Shown: positions 1 to 13,835 of the stretch, one piece after another
Layout: every line of letters starts with the position of its first letter
How positions within the stretch are numbered: position 1 is the stretch's first letter
Source: Desulfovibrio sp.
GTDB lineage: Bacteria > Desulfobacterota > Desulfovibrionia > Desulfovibrionales > Desulfovibrionaceae
Direction of reading: 5' to 3'
Assembly (NCBI GenBank): GCA_030145055.1
Contig: JAQYWK010000002.1
Coordinates: forward strand, 310,001 to 374,000
DNA length: 64,000 nucleotides
Program-made: the position numbers and the translations under genes
Notes under the pieces: generated by a model
The model's input: only the letters and a program-made list of their open reading frames with translations
Databases searched by the model: none
What the model was told of the DNA's origin: nothing

Positions 1-1649
1 CTTTGTCCATCGGGTAAAATGACAACAGCGGTTTTAAATTTGCGATGATATTTAGCTCGACCAGACATTTTTTTAGCTAACTTTTTGGCGAATTCAATTC
101 CGTCAGCTTCAACTACTAAATCTAAATCCAAATTCGGACGGGTAAGCAGTACATCGCGAACAAATCCTCCAACCACATAGGCCTCTGTGCCGGATTCTTC
201 CGCCATTTGGCCCGCAGTTTCCAAAATATCAAGGATCTGATTAGTGAGCCTATTCCGCATAATATTGCGAATATTGCGCTCTTGTTTATTTTCGGGAAAA
301 AGTGACTCGGGAATCCGCGCAGGGTCCTTAACAAGCATATTAATCAAATCAGTGCGTGTAATAACGGCCAAAACTTTATCATTCTCTACAACAGGCACAA
401 GGCGTTGCTTCTGCCCAAGAATAATCTCCATTACACGGTGCAATCCGCAATCTGTTTTTACAGATGAAAAAGGGTGCTGCATGTAAACTTCCACATCAAC
501 ATCACCAAGCTGGTGAGCAACCGCTTTATCCGCCGTTTTCTGCTCAAGTATCCCAACGCAACGCATATTCTCAAGGCTATCTACGACAGGTACCCCTTTC
601 AGACTGAACTGTGTCATGCGTTCAACAGCCTGCGTAATTGTCATGTCCCTAGGAATTGCAACAGCGGGCTTGGACATCAGGTTTTCAACATTAACCCTAG
701 GCGCAACCTTAGAATATAACATAGCAAAAAGTTCATCCCGAACTTCAGCAAGCGTCCTGTCTTTGATTGTAGCAGAAGCGGCATAGGCATGTCCGCCTCC
801 ACCAAAACTTGTACAGATTACTCCCACATCAACATCTTTTACCCTTGACCGTGCAACAAGATGAATTCGGTCATTCATTCTGCCAAGCGCGAAGAGAACT
901 TTAACATTTTCCATATCCATAAATTTATGAACAAGAACGGAAAAATCACCGACATATTCAGGAGTGCTAATTTCAGAAATAACAATATCAAGATCATTAA
1001 TAGTATGAGTCTGTGCGCCATCGAGAAGCTTGCTAAGCAATGAAATCTGTTGAGAAGTGAGATCGCGATGGAGCAGGTCGGTTACAACATCAAGTTCCAT
1101 TCCAGATTCAAGCAGCCATTTTCCAGCTTCAAAATCATGCTGAGTCGTCGAATTGAACATAAAGGAGCCAGTGTCTTCGTAAAGACCGAGACCAAGTATT
1201 GTTGCTTCTTCTTGAAGAAGCGTAATATCCTTTTTCCTAATTTCGTGAGAAAGAATAGCTACGCTCGATCCCCATGGTTTTTTTATGATTAGTTCCGGAT
1301 CAAGATCACAGTCAGACTGCATATGATGGTCATACACATGAATTCTTAGACCAGGATTATCAAGGATCGCTTTGACGTGAGTAATTCTGATTTTACGAGA
1401 GGTATCAACGACGACCAGAAGTTTTACATAATCCTTATCAATTTCTTTTAAGTTCTTAAAATTAAAGAAATAAGTAGCACTTTCCATATAAAACTTACGA
1501 AGATTCTTTTCCTGACTTCCGGGAAAAATAAGAGTTGCACCAGGGTATAATTTTCCGGCGGCAACTATAGCTGCAAGGCAATCAAAGTCAGCGTTGACGT
1601 GACCTGTTATGACTGTTTCAGCCCTTATGAGTTCATCATTTTTAGACAT
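1..1649 (-). CDS. DHH-CBS-CBS-nucleotidyltransferase fusion (tRNA CCA/A-adding type), 3' part cut by window edge
   Basis: Reading left from the ATG at 1647-1649 the frame stays open to base 1, so about 549 residues are visible and the C-terminus is missing. In order I see a DHH phosphoesterase domain (NADFD near residue 20, YDHH near 106, and a GGGGHAYAAS DHHA1 motif near 288), two CBS domains (about 310-440), and the start of a class II nucleotidyltransferase head (GGFVRD followed by DLDLVVE, about 490-510). This order is known from delta-proteobacterial and Aquifex-type proteins related to CCA- or A-adding enzymes and poly(A) polymerase. The head should transfer AMP/CMP to tRNA 3' ends; the role of the DHH part (possibly 3' trimming or nanoRNA cleavage) is inference. 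xerD lies 11 bp upstream on the same strand, so the two are probably cotranscribed. Confidence 0.88.
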   Translation of the reverse strand, partial: MSKNDELIRAETVITGHVNADFDCLAAIVAAGKLYPGATLIFPGSQEKNLRKFYMESATYFFNFKNLKEIDKDYVKLLVVVDTSRKIRITHVKAILDNPGLRIHVYDHHMQSDCDLDPELIIKKPWGSSVAILSHEIRKKDITLLQEEATILGLGLYEDTGSFMFNSTTQHDFEAGKWLLESGMELDVVTDLLHRDLTSQQISLLSKLLDGAQTHTINDLDIVISEISTPEYVGDFSVLVHKFMDMENVKVLFALGRMNDRIHLVARSRVKDVDVGVICTSFGGGGHAYAASATIKDRTLAEVRDELFAMLYSKVAPRVNVENLMSKPAVAIPRDMTITQAVERMTQFSLKGVPVVDSLENMRCVGILEQKTADKAVAHQLGDVDVEVYMQHPFSSVKTDCGLHRVMEIILGQKQRLVPVVENDKVLAVITRTDLINMLVKDPARIPESLFPENKQERNIRNIMRNRLTNQILDILETAGQMAEESGTEAYVVGGFVRDVLLTRPNLDLDLVVEADGIEFAKKLAKKMSGRAKYHRKFKTAVVILPDGQ

Positions 1650-5444: not shown

Positions 5445-6011
5445 TTCGGAATTAGCAAAAAGCTCGTTTAAGAAAACCAGCTCATATCGAAGACAGGTTC
5501 CCAGAACAACGTCTAAGCACGAATTAAGTGCAATCCATATTCATCCTCATATTCACGAGTAAGACCAGCCCCAAGTCACTAAATGAGCTTCAAGCTAAGA
5601 AATGTAGTGTTTTAGCATTTTTTTGATCTCTAATTTAGACGATATGGTTAAGTTATTGTAATAATTCATTTTGTATGAGTGTCTCATAATGTAAATTATG
5701 TAAACTTTGAGAATAATCTAATCGATAAGTGTCGATCATTCACCAGTCTATCCAATTTAATCGTCAACTGATTTGTAATTTTAGTATTAAATTTAAGCAA
5801 TTTAGCACTTACCAATTATTAAGAATAATGACTTGTAAAAATGAATACAGTCACAAACACCTGCCACATCCATTTTCATAATAATTACGACCTTGAGTAT
5901 CAAATTTGAAAATAAAACGGACTGAGTGTTTGCCTCTTTGCGTGGTTTTCTTTATCTATTCGAGTAAATGTATTTTCCACTGTTCACTAATTTTGAATAA
6001 ATGAGGATTTC
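5445..6011. other. Gene-free AT-rich stretch
   Basis: 567 bp between the transaldolase-like gene and the TPR gene. I see no convincing ORF, RNA gene or terminator. On the minus strand at 5513-5578 a 20-codon stretch between stops looks protein-like but is too short to call. The right end presumably carries the promoter of the TPR gene. Confidence 0.5.
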
Positions 6012-8102
6012 ATGATTTCAAATAATTCTATCTATAAAATTCGCTCGGCGGTTCTTACTCTTGTCATATTTATTTTAGCAGCCTCAACTTCATTTGCTGC
6101 CAGTTCAAAGAAAGATGAATCTTTTGATTCATGGCTCGAAAAATATGGCGCGTGGGACATTTTAGAACAAAACTATTCAGGGAGCGGAGATTCTCCAGAA
6201 CTGATTATTAAGAGAGCTCAAACAGCATATAACCTTGGTAGATATTCAGCCTGCATGAATATTCTACAAGGGACCCCTGCTTTTGACGACAAAACACTTG
6301 AGACATCCAGGCTTTGGCTTGGTGGACAAACTCAGCGTGCACTTGGAGATCCAGTCAAAAGTATCATCTGGTTCAGCCAGTCCGCTAGGCTTATGGACCA
6401 AGCTGCAATTAAGACTCAATTCAGGGAAGAACCTAACTTGAAAACAGTCTGGTTTGATGTTTGGCGTTCAATGTTTTGGAGTGCTCAAGTAACTTCAGGA
6501 TCCGCAAGAGAAGCTCAAAACATGATTCTTACCCAATCATTTGAGCAAGCTGAAAAGGTTTGGCCCACCACTTACTTTGTAGTTAATACTAAGCCAGACT
6601 TTGCTACATCAGTCGAAAAAGGGCTTAACTTTAAACCGATCCAGCTTAATTCTACCATAATTAATGATGACGACCGCAAGCTGATAGCCATATCCATTGC
6701 TGCTTCCAGCCTTGGCGAATGGAGTAAATCCAAGTCCATACTTAATAATGTAAGCAATTCCACAGTTCAAACTTTCTGGACGTCTGTTGCGACTTACCTT
6801 GAGACGGGCTCAAACTCCAACGCAACCAACGTTTTCTATAATGATAATTTTGTCAGCGCTGCCGCGTTTTTAGAGGCAGGAGTTCTCGAGCCGGCGTTTA
6901 AGTCCCCTACCCTATGGAAAATGGCTGCTCCGCCGTCTCCAGCTTGGACAACTTTCCGCAACAAGCTGATGTCCATGACACCTGAAGAAGCTCTAGAAAC
7001 CATTGATCGCGAGACGGGTTCGCTACTTTTGTCGGACGATCTGGTTAGCGCTTTACAGAATTACAAATTAGCTTTTGCCTTTTTAACAGGAGATATGGTT
7101 CTAACTCAAAAAATATGGTCTGAACTTGATACCGACTTGCTACCGATCAGCCTAAGAATCGCATCAGGAATTGTTTTTGAACCTGATTTTTCTAAGATAC
7201 TTTCTAAAGATGATACCGGACAGGATTCGCACTTATTCATCATATCAGGGCTTTGCGGTGCTGCCGGAATAGATTACTTCAATGATATATATGCATCTTT
7301 CTGGACCCCTCTTTCTGGAAACAGTTTCAACAATCAAGTCAATGATAAGCCACTGGATAGACTGCTTTTATTCTCTGAGCTAGCACAGAATGCTGGTAAA
7401 AAAATGGACATGAATATTGCCCGTAGATGTGCTTATCTTTTCCCGCACTCTAAACTCGGAGCACAAAGCTTTATTTATTTAGCAGAAAAAGCGGCGCAAA
7501 ATAGAGATTTCAAGCTCTCAGCTTTTTACCTTAAAAGAGTTGATCCCAACGAATTCGGACCTGAAATGCACTTGAAATGGCTAATCGCAGCTGTCGAATA
7601 TGACTTAGCAGTCGGGAATGAAACAAAAGCTCTCAAAGCATACAACGAGATCCTAAGTTCCGGCGGCGCCCTGCCACCAGAAAAAGAACTTAAACTTGCT
7701 CTCTTAATACAGCAGAAAGGCGACTTAAAAAAAGCTCAAGCGATACTTGAAAGAATCTGGTCCAACCGTGATGCATTAAATGATGAGCTTAAAGCTGAGA
7801 TTTTATTTTGGATAGCCGAAGGAGAACAAGCCACTGGAAATAAAGAAGAAGCTTTGAAAAACTACCTAGAGCTTGCTTATAAATTTCCCGAGCAGAACAT
7901 TTGGGCTGTAACAGCAATGTACCGTGTTTCTATGATTTATGAGCGTAAAGGACAGTTTGAAACAGCCAAACGTTTTCTGAATACCGTAATTAAACGCGCT
8001 GATAGAAAAGCACAAAAAGAAGCTGCAAAAGCTAGGCTTAACGCAATTGATACTAAACTCGCGAAAGCTGGAGCTGGAAAAGGCGCCTCTTTTCCTTTTT
8101 AG
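6012..8102 (+). CDS. Exported tetratricopeptide-repeat protein, 696 aa
   Basis: The N-terminus is a signal peptide (basic NSIYKIR, a hydrophobic stretch, then a likely cleavage after SFAA near residue 30), so the protein is periplasmic or envelope-attached. The rest is alpha-helical. The C-terminal third (about 500-680) has clear TPR character: paired helices such as LLIQQKGDLKKAQAILE, ILFWIAEGEQATGNKEEAL and YRVSMIYERKGQFETAKRFL. There is no catalytic domain that I recognise. By analogy with other large periplasmic TPR proteins a scaffolding role in the envelope is likely, but no partner can be named from context. It is flanked by an empty stretch and a strong terminator, so it is probably transcribed alone. 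Confidence 0.8.
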   Translation: MISNNSIYKIRSAVLTLVIFILAASTSFAASSKKDESFDSWLEKYGAWDILEQNYSGSGDSPELIIKRAQTAYNLGRYSACMNILQGTPAFDDKTLETSRLWLGGQTQRALGDPVKSIIWFSQSARLMDQAAIKTQFREEPNLKTVWFDVWRSMFWSAQVTSGSAREAQNMILTQSFEQAEKVWPTTYFVVNTKPDFATSVEKGLNFKPIQLNSTIINDDDRKLIAISIAASSLGEWSKSKSILNNVSNSTVQTFWTSVATYLETGSNSNATNVFYNDNFVSAAAFLEAGVLEPAFKSPTLWKMAAPPSPAWTTFRNKLMSMTPEEALETIDRETGSLLLSDDLVSALQNYKLAFAFLTGDMVLTQKIWSELDTDLLPISLRIASGIVFEPDFSKILSKDDTGQDSHLFIISGLCGAAGIDYFNDIYASFWTPLSGNSFNNQVNDKPLDRLLLFSELAQNAGKKMDMNIARRCAYLFPHSKLGAQSFIYLAEKAAQNRDFKLSAFYLKRVDPNEFGPEMHLKWLIAAVEYDLAVGNETKALKAYNEILSSGGALPPEKELKLALLIQQKGDLKKAQAILERIWSNRDALNDELKAEILFWIAEGEQATGNKEEALKNYLELAYKFPEQNIWAVTAMYRVSMIYERKGQFETAKRFLNTVIKRADRKAQKEAAKARLNAIDTKLAKAGAGKGASFPF

Positions 8103-8153
8103 CTAATATGATAATTTAAGAGCTAAGCTTAGTTCTAAGAAATATTCGAGTTC

Positions 8154-8197
8154 AAACAAAACAGCCTGCATAATATTTATGCAGGCTGTTTTGTTAT
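8154..8197. terminator. Bidirectional terminator
   Basis: Arms AACAAAACAGCCTGCATAA and its exact complement, separated by a few bases, with A- and T-rich flanks on both sides. It serves the TPR gene from the left and the convergent amidohydrolase from the right. Confidence 0.9.
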
Positions 8198-8232
8198 CAG
8201 AGAAATTTAAAACTATAACTTTTAAGCTGCGC

Positions 8233-9492
8233 TTATTCTGCTCTCATAATTTTAATCGTCGTAGCTACCATAGTCGTGACTGCCGTAGATATTGTAGATT
8301 CTGGCGGAGGGAGAAATTTGCTATTATGCAGACCGGGCATTGTTATTCCGGATGAGTGAAATGATTCCATATCGGAAAGAGATGTTGCTCCCGCAAAAAA
8401 CAGACAGCAAGGTATCTCGTTCGAAGCTGCTTTTCTGAAGAGCGCGAAATCCTCGCTCCCCATAACCTTATCAACTTTTGAAATATTCCCCTCGCCCAAA
8501 TTATCAATCACTACAGATTTCACAATTTCAGCGAGATTCTTATCATTGATGGTTGCGGGCAGTTCATCCGCTTCATTTAGATCTATAATTGGGAGTAGGT
8601 TTTCGGGAATATCCATGGAAAGTGCTTCGTTTTTACAAATTCGCTTTATGGAATTCAATATTCGGTTCCGACTATCCGAATCAAAAAATCTAGCAGTAAC
8701 TTCCATCACCACTTCTTCAGGGATAATATTCGCCCTAGTTCCGCCATGAATAGATCCGACCGTGACTACTGCCGGATTTAAAGGGCTAATTTCCCGGCTA
8801 ACTACAGTCTGTAGAGATGTCACAATTCTTGCCGCAAGAACGACTGGGTCCCTAGCTTCATGAGGAAATGCCCCATGCCCCCCTACTCCGCGTACTATGA
8901 TTTTAAGCTGAAAAGTACCCGCCATAATCGGACCGGAACGTACTGCGATTGATCCGCTCGAAATCGTAGGAAACACATGCATGGCGAGGCAATAATCTGG
9001 AGTCCCACACTTTTCAAACAGTCCGTCCTCAAGCATCCCTTTCGCGCCAGACATCGATTCTTCAGCTGGCTGACCTACAAAAAGGATACTACCTTTCCAA
9101 ACGTTCTTCATTTGAGTGAGAATTTTTGCTACTCCGACAAATACAGCCATGTGAATATCATGACCGCAACCGTGCATAACCCCGCAGGACCTACCAGAGG
9201 AATCAAGCGTTTTAACCGTGCTAGCATAATCAGCGCCCGATGTTTCAATAATCGGCAAAGCGTCCATGTCGGTGCGAATCATGATCGTTGGGCCATCACC
9301 ATTTTTCAGCACGCCCGCAATCCCGAAGCCACCAATATTTCTAATAACTTCTATGCCGCACGCTTCTAAATGCTCAGCCAATAGCGACGACGTCTTTTCT
9401 TCTAAACCGGAAAGTTCAGGATTTGCATGCAGTCGCTTATAAAGCGTTACCAAAGAAGCCAGCTCTTGCTGGACAATTTTACATAACGTCAT
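8233..9492 (-). CDS. M20-family amidohydrolase (N-acyl-amino-acid hydrolase / hippurate hydrolase type)
   Basis: 419 residues. The M20D signature is clear: MIRTDMDALPI near 72-82, the metal-binding MHGCGHDIHMA near 105-115, an EES motif (QPAEESMSGA) and a C-terminal GSEDFALF. The Cys in HGCGHD is typical of the M20D/HipO group, which removes acyl groups from amino acids or peptides using a bound metal pair. It has no signal peptide, so it is cytoplasmic. The exact substrate (hippurate, N-acetyl amino acid, indole-acetyl conjugates) cannot be told. The 64-aa gene 33 bp upstream on the same strand is probably cotranscribed. Confidence 0.88.
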   Translation of the reverse strand: MTLCKIVQQELASLVTLYKRLHANPELSGLEEKTSSLLAEHLEACGIEVIRNIGGFGIAGVLKNGDGPTIMIRTDMDALPIIETSGADYASTVKTLDSSGRSCGVMHGCGHDIHMAVFVGVAKILTQMKNVWKGSILFVGQPAEESMSGAKGMLEDGLFEKCGTPDYCLAMHVFPTISSGSIAVRSGPIMAGTFQLKIIVRGVGGHGAFPHEARDPVVLAARIVTSLQTVVSREISPLNPAVVTVGSIHGGTRANIIPEEVVMEVTARFFDSDSRNRILNSIKRICKNEALSMDIPENLLPIIDLNEADELPATINDKNLAEIVKSVVIDNLGEGNISKVDKVMGSEDFALFRKAASNEIPCCLFFAGATSLSDMESFHSSGITMPGLHNSKFLPPPESTISTAVTTMVATTIKIMRAE

Positions 9493-9720: not shown

Positions 9721-9849
9721 CTATATCTCCTCAAATAAAATTTATATACTTAAAAACATCAAAATAGTATTGATAGCATGTACTGATGTCTATGAATAAT
9801 TGTTCTTTTTTAGATAAAATCTACAACATTTATGAATAAGGATATCAAA

Positions 9850-10200
9850 ATGAGTTATAAAGTCGTTTTTCATATTGATTGGGATGATGATAAAATTTTG
9901 AACATGGCGCTCGGTAATATTGAAAACTTAATCAAAGATCCGTCGGCTACAGGTTCTGAAATACATATTGTTTCAAATGGCAATTCTGTACGGTTATTTC
10001 GTACTGAATTCTGCGAGGAGAATATTGCCAGAATCAAGTCGCTTCATTCAGATGGAGTCAGATTTTGCCTTTGCAATAATTCACTAAACAAGCTTCATTT
10101 CAAACCAGAAGATATGATTGATATATGTGAAGTCGTGCCCGCAGGCATCATCGAAATCTGTAAGCTTCAAACGGCAGGATGCGCATATATAAAACCATAA
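9850..10200 (+). CDS. DsrE-like family protein
   Basis: 116 residues from the ATG at 9850, preceded by AAGGAT at good spacing; an upstream ATG at 9832 lacks such a site. The sequence follows the DsrE/DsrF-like alpha/beta fold seen in COG1416 proteins: KVVFHIDWDD, then a run of helices with EIHIVSNGNSVRLF, and a cysteine in FCLCNNSL before VPAGIIEICKLQTAGCAYIKP. The FCLCNNS position matches the conserved cysteine of the family, used in persulfide relay in DsrE and TusD. In a sulfate reducer a sulfur-trafficking role is plausible but unproven. Confidence 0.8.
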   Translation: MSYKVVFHIDWDDDKILNMALGNIENLIKDPSATGSEIHIVSNGNSVRLFRTEFCEENIARIKSLHSDGVRFCLCNNSLNKLHFKPEDMIDICEVVPAGIIEICKLQTAGCAYIKP

Positions 10201-11653: not shown

Positions 11654-11904
11654 TAGTTATCCCCTTATTTAATTGGTAAGTTGAAAAATAACGTTTATGA
11701 ACTTCTCTTAAACTTTATAACCTGAATCAATTTAATCTTGATATAAACATATTGGAATATTCGGTGCAAGATCATTGCGGAGTAAAGATTATATTCATAC
11801 AACAAGAAGGAATACTATTCGAAAATTATCATTTTCATTCGATGCGAACTTGTTTAATTTATGATAAGTTTTCAATACCTAATAAACTTTTACTTAATGA
11901 ATAA

Positions 11905-13284
11905 ATGACATCCAAAACACGCCCTCACTTACAATTACTTGTTGCCATTTTACTCGTTTTGCTTGTTGGAACGGTGGGCTATCTACTGCTTGAAGATGGG
12001 TGGACGGTGCTAGACGCCCTCTACATGACAGTCATAACCATCACAACTATCGGTTATGGTGAAATTCATGAGCTTTCATCAGCCAGTCGCATTTTTACGA
12101 TTGGACTTATTTTTACAGGCCTCGGGGTCGCGGCAGTATTTGCTACGCAAATTGCTAAAATGATAGTGCAATCCGGAATCAAAAACTTATACGAGAAACG
12201 TAAAATGAACGACAAAATTAACAAGCTTCAATCACACACCATTATTTGCGGTTATGGCCGTATCGGTCGATCCATTAGCCTGAAACTTTTCGAGCTTGGA
12301 CTAGATTTTGTTATTTTAGATACTAGCGAAGAAAAATTAAATGAAGCTGAACAACGCGGATACTTAACAATGCACGGAGACGCCGCTGTCGATGGAGTTC
12401 TGCTTTCAGCAGGCATCGGACGGGCTGAATACATTGTGCTGTGCATTAATAATGATGCGGACAATATTAATATTTCATTGGCTGCGCGTGAACTGAATCC
12501 CGATATATTCGTTGTAGCAAGAGGTTCTGACCCAACAATTGAATATAGAATGCTAAGAGCCGGAGCGAACACGGTAGTTTACCCCATGACCCTCGGCGGT
12601 GAGCAGATCGCACACATATTAGCTCGCCATGCAGGTGTTGCCCCAGCGAACAACAAAGGCACTGCTCCTCATGACGTAATGGGATACAGCCTTAAAATAT
12701 TTCCATATTTAGAAGATGAACAACTCACAGTTGCGGATGCTCTCAAACGGACAAATTCACAAAAAGCACTGGTATTACACCGCGTTGACGGAGAAGATAT
12801 AGAAGATCCTGATGATAATGAAGTGCTGGAGCATGGGGATTCGCTCTTAGTTCTGGTGCGTTGCGAGAAATCCACCAAGACCAATATTGAAGAAACCGTA
12901 ACGTGGTCAGAAGATCTACTTTTGGGCATCCCTTCGATTGACGCAGAACACCGGGTGCTTGTTAAATACGCAGAAGATTTTCAAAAGGCAGTAAACGAGG
13001 GGAAAGAAGGCGAAGCCATTGCAAGGCTGTTTGACAGATTACTGGAGTACACCACCAGCCATTTTGCGAGAGAAGAAGGATTCATGCAAAAGCGTGGGTA
13101 TCCGGATATTGAAGAGCACATGAAAGAACACCGCCGTATTACCCGCGAGGTTATGGAACTGAATCGTGATAAACGGTATGTATTCTCAGAAAGCGTTGAT
13201 AAATTTCTACAAGACTGGATTATCAATCATATTAATCATACTGATCGGAAGTATGTTAAGTTTATGTTGGAGAATAAGAAGTAG
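11905..13284 (+). CDS. Potassium channel with RCK domains fused to a C-terminal haemerythrin domain
   Basis: 459 residues with three parts. (1) A two-helix pore module at about 11-90 with the K+ selectivity filter TTIGYGE (47-53). (2) A cytosolic RCK unit: the Rossmann TrkA-N part with CGYGRIGRS (about 115-124) and D139 at the end of strand 2, then a TrkA-C part (about 258-322). (3) A haemerythrin domain at about 333-455 starting with the typical VTWSEDLLLGIPSIDAEH. The diiron ligands are all present at canonical spacing: H349, H386, E390, H405, H409, H442 and D447. The first two parts make a ligand-gated K+ channel. Haemerythrins bind O2 or NO, so gating by oxygen or NO is a natural inference. 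It is divergent from gadB. Confidence 0.92.
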   Translation: MTSKTRPHLQLLVAILLVLLVGTVGYLLLEDGWTVLDALYMTVITITTIGYGEIHELSSASRIFTIGLIFTGLGVAAVFATQIAKMIVQSGIKNLYEKRKMNDKINKLQSHTIICGYGRIGRSISLKLFELGLDFVILDTSEEKLNEAEQRGYLTMHGDAAVDGVLLSAGIGRAEYIVLCINNDADNINISLAARELNPDIFVVARGSDPTIEYRMLRAGANTVVYPMTLGGEQIAHILARHAGVAPANNKGTAPHDVMGYSLKIFPYLEDEQLTVADALKRTNSQKALVLHRVDGEDIEDPDDNEVLEHGDSLLVLVRCEKSTKTNIEETVTWSEDLLLGIPSIDAEHRVLVKYAEDFQKAVNEGKEGEAIARLFDRLLEYTTSHFAREEGFMQKRGYPDIEEHMKEHRRITREVMELNRDKRYVFSESVDKFLQDWIINHINHTDRKYVKFMLENKK

Positions 13285-13340: not shown

Positions 13341-13373
13341 TCGCCGTGGCTCGTAAGAGCTGCGGCTTTTTTT
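13341..13373 (+). terminator. Terminator after the channel gene
   Basis: GCCG-TG-GCTC, loop GTAA, GAGC-TG-CGGC, then seven T residues; 57 bp after the channel stop. Confidence 0.8.
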
Positions 13374-13460
13374 ACGGCAAGAAAGCACTAGGTAAGGTCA
13401 CTAACATGAGTCAAGCCATCAAATAAAAGGACCTATTCAAGGGCAGGATATAGAACACAA

Positions 13461-13502: not shown

Positions 13503-13589
13503 TGGTGCCGAGGGGGGGACTCGAACCCCCACGGAATTTCTTCCACTAGCCCCTCAAGCTAGCGTGTCTACCAATTCCACCACCTCGGC
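13503..13589 (-). tRNA. tRNA-Leu (anticodon GAG), copy 2 in transcription order
   Basis: 87 nt including the encoded CCA. The acceptor stem is GCCGAGG/CCTCGGC with discriminator A, there is a long variable arm as in class II tRNAs, and the anticodon stem-loop is CTAGC-TTGAGGG-GCTAG, giving anticodon GAG (CUC/CUU codons). The sequence is identical to the copy at 13749-13835. Confidence 0.97.
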
Positions 13590-13748: not shown

Positions 13749-13835
13749 TGGTGCCGAGGGGGGGACTCGAACCCCCACGGAATTTCTTCCACTAGCCCCT
13801 CAAGCTAGCGTGTCTACCAATTCCACCACCTCGGC
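13749..13835 (-). tRNA. tRNA-Leu (anticodon GAG), copy 1 in transcription order
   Basis: The same 87-nt class II tRNA with encoded CCA, 159 bp upstream of its twin and 54 bp downstream of secG on the same strand. The order secG then tRNA-Leu(GAG) matches secG-leuU of E. coli. Confidence 0.97.

Follow-up and report, generated by a model that had tools for sequence, protein, structure and literature searches.

A Potassium Channel Joined to an RCK Domain and a Haemerythrin: A Candidate Oxygen-Linked Ion Channel

Introduction

Could a potassium channel be regulated through a non-haem diiron centre? This question is raised by a single reading frame in the window (i.e., the whole 64,000-nucleotide stretch of DNA analysed here), which joins a K+ pore, an RCK domain, and a haemerythrin in one protein (Table 1). 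Known haemerythrin sensors act on a chemotaxis receptor and on c-di-GMP enzymes, the latter being redox-responsive; how such sensors signal to their partner domain is called unclear in a review, in part because full-length DcrH, the chemotaxis receptor of Desulfovibrio vulgaris, is difficult to purify (PMC9388753). Searches of the open-licence full-text literature under the spellings "hemerythrin" and "bacteriohemerythrin" found no account of a K+ channel with a haemerythrin; a 2016 survey reports 56 architectures of long haemerythrins (PMC4919030), and the architecture described here may be tabulated in its supplementary figure. While the pore, RCK, and haemerythrin parts are already known, what is new is that an ion channel would serve as the output of a haemerythrin sensor. 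An O2-linked regulatory role is the best reading of this protein.

Domain Composition of the Fusion Protein

A first-pass annotation of this locus had described one frame containing a K+ pore, TrkA-N and TrkA-C regulatory domains, and a complete haemerythrin. Pfam searches of the 459-aa protein identified Ion_trans_2 (residues 14–88; E = 8.9e-18), TrkA_N (113–227; E = 5.8e-29), and Hemerythrin (342–451; E = 2.9e-12), all above cut-off, and the NCBIfam bacteriohemerythrin model NF033749 matched residues 332–454 (E = 3.2e-33), also above cut-off. The translation carries the filter TTIGYGE at residues 47–53 and seven diiron ligands (H349, H386, E390, H405, H409, H442, and D447) at canonical spacing, in agreement with that annotation; all seven ligands are invariant among the 12 intact fusions that we identified. 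The channel/haemerythrin combination is present in one protein, with Pfam domains scanned in six of the fusions. The TrkA-C assignment fared less well than TrkA-N, which is clear; TrkA_C gave no match at E ≤ 1 in the Pfam scan of the whole protein, and the isolated C-lobe segment scored 14.7 bits (E = 0.028) against a cut-off of 27. Three plain channels aligned with this segment do score as TrkA_C (E = 7e-12, 7e-14, and 3e-11), and both this alignment and the predicted model place a C-lobe there; we read the segment as a diverged C-lobe and not as a scoring TrkA_C domain.

Table 1. Positions in the window of the fusion gene, its parts, and the adjacent terminator.
Feature	Position	Strand	Basis
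Whole gene, K+ channel–RCK–haemerythrin fusion	11905..13284	+	459 aa, ATG start, TAG stop; ORF list and translation
TM1 (residues 6–29)	11920..11991	+	AlphaFold2 helix; Ion_trans_2 14–88
Pore helix and selectivity filter (35–53)	12007..12063	+	Pfam, AlphaFold2; filter TTIGYGE (47–53) at 12043–12063
TM2 extending into RCK linker (59–107)	12079..12225	+	Single unbroken helix in model
RCK N-lobe / TrkA_N Rossmann domain (113–227)	12241..12585	+	Pfam E 5.8e-29; GxGxxG 116–121, acidic D139
Diverged RCK C-lobe (about 241–318)	12625..12858	+	TrkA_C E 0.028, below cut-off; alignment with TrkA_C of plain channels
Linker and start of haemerythrin N-terminal loop (319–333)	12859..12903	+	Model; low confidence at 320–325
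Haemerythrin domain (332–454), four-helix bundle	12898..13266	+	NCBIfam E 3.2e-33; domain model matching DcrH
Diiron ligand H349	12949..12951	+	Invariant 12/12
Diiron ligands H386 and E390 (HxxxE)	13060..13074	+	Invariant 12/12
Diiron ligands H405 and H409 (HxxxH)	13117..13131	+	Invariant 12/12
Fusion-specific short loop NRDKRYVF (420–427), third to fourth helix	13162..13185	+	H409–H442 distance
Diiron ligands H442 and D447 (HxxxxD)	13228..13245	+	Invariant 12/12
Likely intrinsic terminator	13343..13376	+	10-pair stem 13343–13366 and T-rich tail

The same annotation had named, as a way in which it could be wrong, a base error around position 12870 that fused two neighbouring genes. This explanation is refuted, as is any other assembly error or chance joining, because the intact fusion recurs in other genomes; the same in-frame arrangement with no internal stop is present in 11 other genomes, and the 12 together represent six genera. 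The initiating methionine lies in the same column in 8 of the 11 aligned fusion rows.

Distribution and Evolutionary History of the Fusion

Of 348 genomes of the class, 11 carry the intact fusion, the window's own genome among them; within the genus, it is present in 7 of 17 genomes and was not found in the other 10. One further intact fusion, 41% identical, is present in another class (genome G510), where it occurs in 1 of the 22 genomes of that order and class; in a phylum sample of 395 genomes, G510 was the only carrier besides the window's own genome. Channels of related sequence that lack the haemerythrin, most of them about 340 aa long, are common across the phylum. A short-peptide contig scan restricted to near relatives returned four loci with one fusion (L009), the record of which is a Desulfovibrio sp. 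MAG; this one named MAG suggests that the carriers are relatives of Desulfovibrio, and the nearest named relative suggests that the host is an anaerobe. Broken copies, interrupted by a stop or frame change that may represent decay or assembly error, were seen at loci L044 (G243) and L045 (G144).

Genome-by-genome searches outside the phylum covered the phyla of G726, G727, and G728 and used cut-offs of 1e-62 and 1e-75, at which a fusion like that of G510 (1.4e-114) is detectable and a more distant one could be missed. No fusion was found in 247 genomes of the G728 phylum at the cut-off used, in a search run with no positive control, nor by profile search in 247 genomes of the G727 phylum, which overlap those of the G728 search and gave a single match (G957; residues 12–325 in a 338-aa frame), nor in 149 genomes of the G726 phylum, where the single match (G1007) covers residues 8–321. 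Plasmid records gave four matches, none of which covered >80% of the query.

In a channel-half tree built on residues 1–318, all 12 fused proteins split from 23 plain channels with support of 100/100; a long-branch warning applies to L055, which adjoins the fused clade. In the haemerythrin tree, from which the broken G144 copy was omitted, the fused domains split from 20 other haemerythrins with support of 94/93 and in 92% of bootstrap trees, a bootstrap just under the starred level, and several long branches are unsure. Both trees group the genus together and place G510 and G023 far out, with weak support for the deep order. Because the channel halves and the haemerythrin halves each form one clade, the simplest reading, and a likely one, is a single old fusion passed on in one piece.

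At locus L068 of G186, a genome without the channel, a DNA-alkylation-repair gene (660–1370, minus strand) starts with approximately the first 12 codons of the channel. We read this as a deletion scar at the syntenic place, downstream of the lost channel, which would mean that the channel gene was lost at least once.

We compared five segments of the protein for selection and conservation. For the pairs with G007 and G157, dN/dS was lowest in the haemerythrin among the five segments, at 0.040 and 0.015, as compared to 0.051 and 0.033 in the RCK N-lobe and 0.137 and 0.106 in the pore; the haemerythrin values come from two of four pairs, as dS was saturated in the other two. Haemerythrin dN (0.044 and 0.029) was not below that of the N-lobe (0.027 and 0.028), and the low haemerythrin dN/dS owes partly to a high dS. 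Mean pairwise identity among 11 fusions was 0.76 in the N-lobe, 0.69 in the pore, 0.67 in the haemerythrin, and 0.43 in the C-lobe, which adjoins the haemerythrin and is the least conserved of the five segments. The haemerythrin is under purifying selection and is conserved about like the pore, not exceptionally.

The Channel Half Resembles MthK and GsuK

The selectivity filter reads TT[IV]G[YF]GE in all 12 fusions, with the tyrosine replaced by phenylalanine in five. In the Rossmann lobe, the three glycines of the GxGxxG motif are invariant in the 12 fusions and the acidic residue (D/E) at the end of the second strand is conserved, D139 being replaced by glutamate in G510 only. An AlphaFold2 model of the full-length monomer (mean pLDDT 77.9, pTM 0.40) contains TM1, a pore helix (residues 35–47), and one long TM2/linker helix with the limits given in Table 1, followed by the Rossmann lobe, a short C-lobe, and four long haemerythrin helices (343–364, 369–397, 402–419, and 430–456); with a pTM of 0.40, it leaves the placement of the haemerythrin relative to the RCK lobe unfixed, and whole-chain fits to MthK gave rmsd values near 15 and TM-scores of 0.26–0.40. 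The modelled N-lobe matched the MthK RCK domain (2aef_B) with Z = 20.7 and rmsd 1.6 over 119 aligned residues.

The channel half resembles MthK and GsuK by both sequence and fold, the likeness extending over the pore, the TM2-linker, and the RCK N-lobe. Both differ from the fusion, which adds a C-terminal haemerythrin and has a diverged RCK C-lobe; in addition, GsuK contains two RCK domains per subunit, whereas the fusion contains one. The nucleotide motif of the fusion is that of the second RCK domain of GsuK, where GxGxxG...D/E has been described as nucleotide-binding, and ADP and NAD+ both activate GsuK and have been crystallised with it (PMC3510474). The Rossmann lobe of the fusion therefore probably binds an adenine nucleotide, as judged from this motif.

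A channel in which only nucleotide binding at the RCK lobe controls gating, with the haemerythrin serving as a local scavenger of O2 or peroxide or as an assembly domain, would be consistent with the conserved Rossmann motif, with the diverged C-lobe, and with the common occurrence in the phylum of related channels that do without a haemerythrin. However, a scavenger has no need to be tied to one channel family, while here the halves were kept together in 12 genomes of six genera and the haemerythrin carries a fusion-specific loop (see below); we consider this alternative unlikely.

The Haemerythrin Half Resembles DcrH

The best solved relative of the haemerythrin half by sequence is DcrH (E = 2e-17). 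The domain modelled alone matched DcrH with Z = 18.3 and rmsd 2.0 over 128 aligned residues; the Z-score was 18.3 for the met-azido form and 17.3 for the deoxy form. The pattern H-HxxxE-HxxxH-HxxxxD, i.e., the conserved ligands of bacterial haemerythrin sensors, is present in all 12 fusions and unchanged even in the most distant of them (39–41% identical); I443, at the position of DcrH I119, is invariant in the 12 fusions as well. Conserved iron ligands are listed among the traits of bacterial haemerythrin-domain sensors, together with fusion to an N- or C-terminal domain, a larger substrate tunnel, and rapid autoxidation (PMC9388753). Like the fusion, DcrH carries a haemerythrin with the same ligands at the C-terminus, behind a membrane-anchored signalling protein; the output is an MCP in DcrH but a K+ channel in the fusion, and the fusion has three fewer residues in the loop that connects helices three and four.

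This shorter loop sets the fused domains apart. The H409–H442 distance is 33 in all 13 measurable fused copies (the 12 intact ones and that of G243), as compared to a corresponding distance of 36 (18 proteins), 37 (one), or 49 (one) in 20 other haemerythrins. The motif of the short loop, which reads NRDKRYVF in the window's protein, is conserved and lies outside the iron site, suggesting an adaptation to the channel context; we suspect that this fusion-only loop contacts the channel.

DcrH binds O2 with a Kd of 0.3 µM, autoxidises fast, and has been discussed as an O2/redox sensor; the met and azidomet forms show an ordered N-terminal loop, which is disordered in the deoxy form, and azide binding by itself produces no change in the review's account (PMC9388753). 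Among sensors in which the canonical ligands are joined to an effector, as in the fusion, activity is redox-dependent in Bhr-DGC, where the diferrous form is 10-fold more active than the diferric form, and in Bhr-HD-GYP, which is active only in the diferrous form; the same review reports that no oxy adduct was seen with either (PMC9388753). These proteins are enzymes and not channels, and the effector is C-terminal in Bhr-DGC but N-terminal in the fusion.

Haemerythrins bind NO at the diferrous site, and NO or nitrosative stress could be the physiological signal that gates the channel, as the same ligand set would serve. YtfE, a di-iron protein, has been reported as a nitrite reductase under nitrosative stress (PMC9052748). 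However, DcrH, the closest characterised domain, is discussed as an O2/redox sensor (PMC9388753), and inspection by eye of the genes flanking the fusion revealed none recognisable as an NO gene, which counts only weakly against this reading. We regard an NO signal as distinctly unlikely.

The P1B-5-ATPases resemble the fusion as membrane cation transporters with a haemerythrin-like domain at the C-terminus. For that domain, iron sensing has been left open (PMC9388753), and the haemerythrin of the fusion could by the same token report iron supply, a filled site stabilising the bundle and setting the channel while an empty site would not. The P1B-5-ATPases, however, are active metal pumps with a ligand motif altered to H-HxxxE-HxE-HxxxxD, whereas the canonical set is kept in 12 of 12 fusions and their HxE is absent, the H405–H409 spacing being 4 in all intact copies; an iron sensor thus seems improbable.

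Proposed Mechanism

We give a probability of about 0.6 to an MthK-like channel with a DcrH-type haemerythrin in which O2-driven oxidation of the diiron centre is relayed to the gating ring. A tetrameric two-helix K+ channel would sit in the inner membrane with its RCK gating ring in the cytoplasm, and the ring would bear C-terminal haemerythrins, each with a diiron centre; the diiron binding, the tetramer, and the coupling are features that we infer. O2 entering the cell would be bound by the diferrous site and quickly oxidise it, the oxidation would alter the haemerythrin N-terminal loop that connects the domain to the RCK C-lobe, and the altered loop would shift the gating ring and the open probability, with a nucleotide at the Rossmann lobe as a second input beside the O2/redox signal. 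Because DcrH binds O2, simple reversible O2 binding would be a possible trigger instead, but by analogy to the known sensors we favour oxidation. The first-pass annotation had proposed that O2 or NO binding at the diiron site gates K+ flux directly; the analysis bears out the architecture and the ligand set behind that proposal, whereas the gating itself is a hypothesis. The broader statement that a non-haem diiron centre, oxidised or bound by O2, gates the channel, with the ring setting K+ flux and a nucleotide as second input, is in our judgement evenly balanced.

In favour of relayed oxidation, we count the invariant ligands, I443, the low haemerythrin dN/dS, the fold match to DcrH, the match to MthK and GsuK, the fusion-only short loop, and the fact that the redox-ordered loop of DcrH corresponds to the junction segment of the fusion. 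The low conservation of the C-lobe (0.43) counts against it, because it is odd for a coupling surface; so do the 10 genomes of the genus in which the gene was not found and the possibility that the haemerythrin handles O2 with no relay. As for direction, Kef provides an analogy, being responsible for K+ efflux triggered by stress. If the host is an anaerobe, an open resting state would be implausible for such a channel, and we lean weakly towards oxidation opening rather than closing it.

The genome holds eight haemerythrin domains, which include the C-terminal domain of an MCP (L002) and that of a PAS-GGDEF protein (L005), both assigned by Pfam; the channel would be the third haemerythrin signalling output of this genome. 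A plain RCK channel is encoded elsewhere in it (C3:108886; a 354-aa frame, match over residues 15–319). If the proposed mechanism is true, relatives of Desulfovibrio would have a fast ionic or electrical response to O2 beside their MCP- and PAS-GGDEF-linked haemerythrins. In lipid bilayers, MthK-like channels allow activity to be recorded from single molecules; should the coupling prove real, haemerythrin-to-partner signalling would become directly measurable, and a non-haem diiron input would join Ca2+ and nucleotides in the gating of RCK channels.

Gene Neighbourhood

Neighbour families in the window were assigned by Pfam. In five of the seven carriers of the genus, the gene is flanked by an M20 peptidase gene on one side and secG-tpiA-pgk on the other; for G117 and G327, the view extended to the M20 side alone. 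The likely terminator listed in Table 1 is one of four terminator-type sites found, as compared to 1.7 in shuffled sequences. It is followed on the minus strand by two tRNA-Leu genes (anticodon gag; 13503–13589 and 13749–13835), approximately 160 bases apart.

A functional link with the divergent upstream gene for a pyridoxal-dependent decarboxylase (Pfam Pyridoxal_deC), which we take to be a glutamate decarboxylase, was considered, as K+ and glutamate are counter-ions. This link was dropped. The decarboxylase is adjacent to the fusion in four of the seven carriers of the genus (G000, G007, G117, and G179) and was absent from the parts of the neighbourhood viewed in G157, G105, and G327; similar genes (83–86%) are present in the fusion-less genomes G165, G186, G140, and G129.

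A DNA-alkylation-repair gene (PF08713) directly follows the channel in G117 (L049, 6459–7148) and G105 (L083, 5510–6199), and the two genes probably form one operon, with an overlapping ATGA in G117. In G031 (L047), the genes at 5485–6882 and 6879–9197 overlap, the channel gene overlapping the end of the upstream gene by 4 bases, and these probably represent one operon as well. The upstream gene encodes a 772-aa protein in which a PALP enzyme with a cysteine-synthase-like start is joined to a tRNA synthetase of class I whose C-terminal domain is that of a cysteinyl-tRNA ligase, an odd second fusion.

A stretch like ATATAAACATATTGGAA(A/T)AT was identified at window positions 11735–11770 and also upstream in G007, G105, G327, G117, and G186; it lies approximately 130 bases before the start in G000 and G007 and just before it in the others, and is looser in G327. 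A small DsrE/DsrF-like protein (PF02635) is encoded at window positions 9832–10200; this gene lies close to the fusion in G000, G007, and G157, and in G165 it is found near the decarboxylase.
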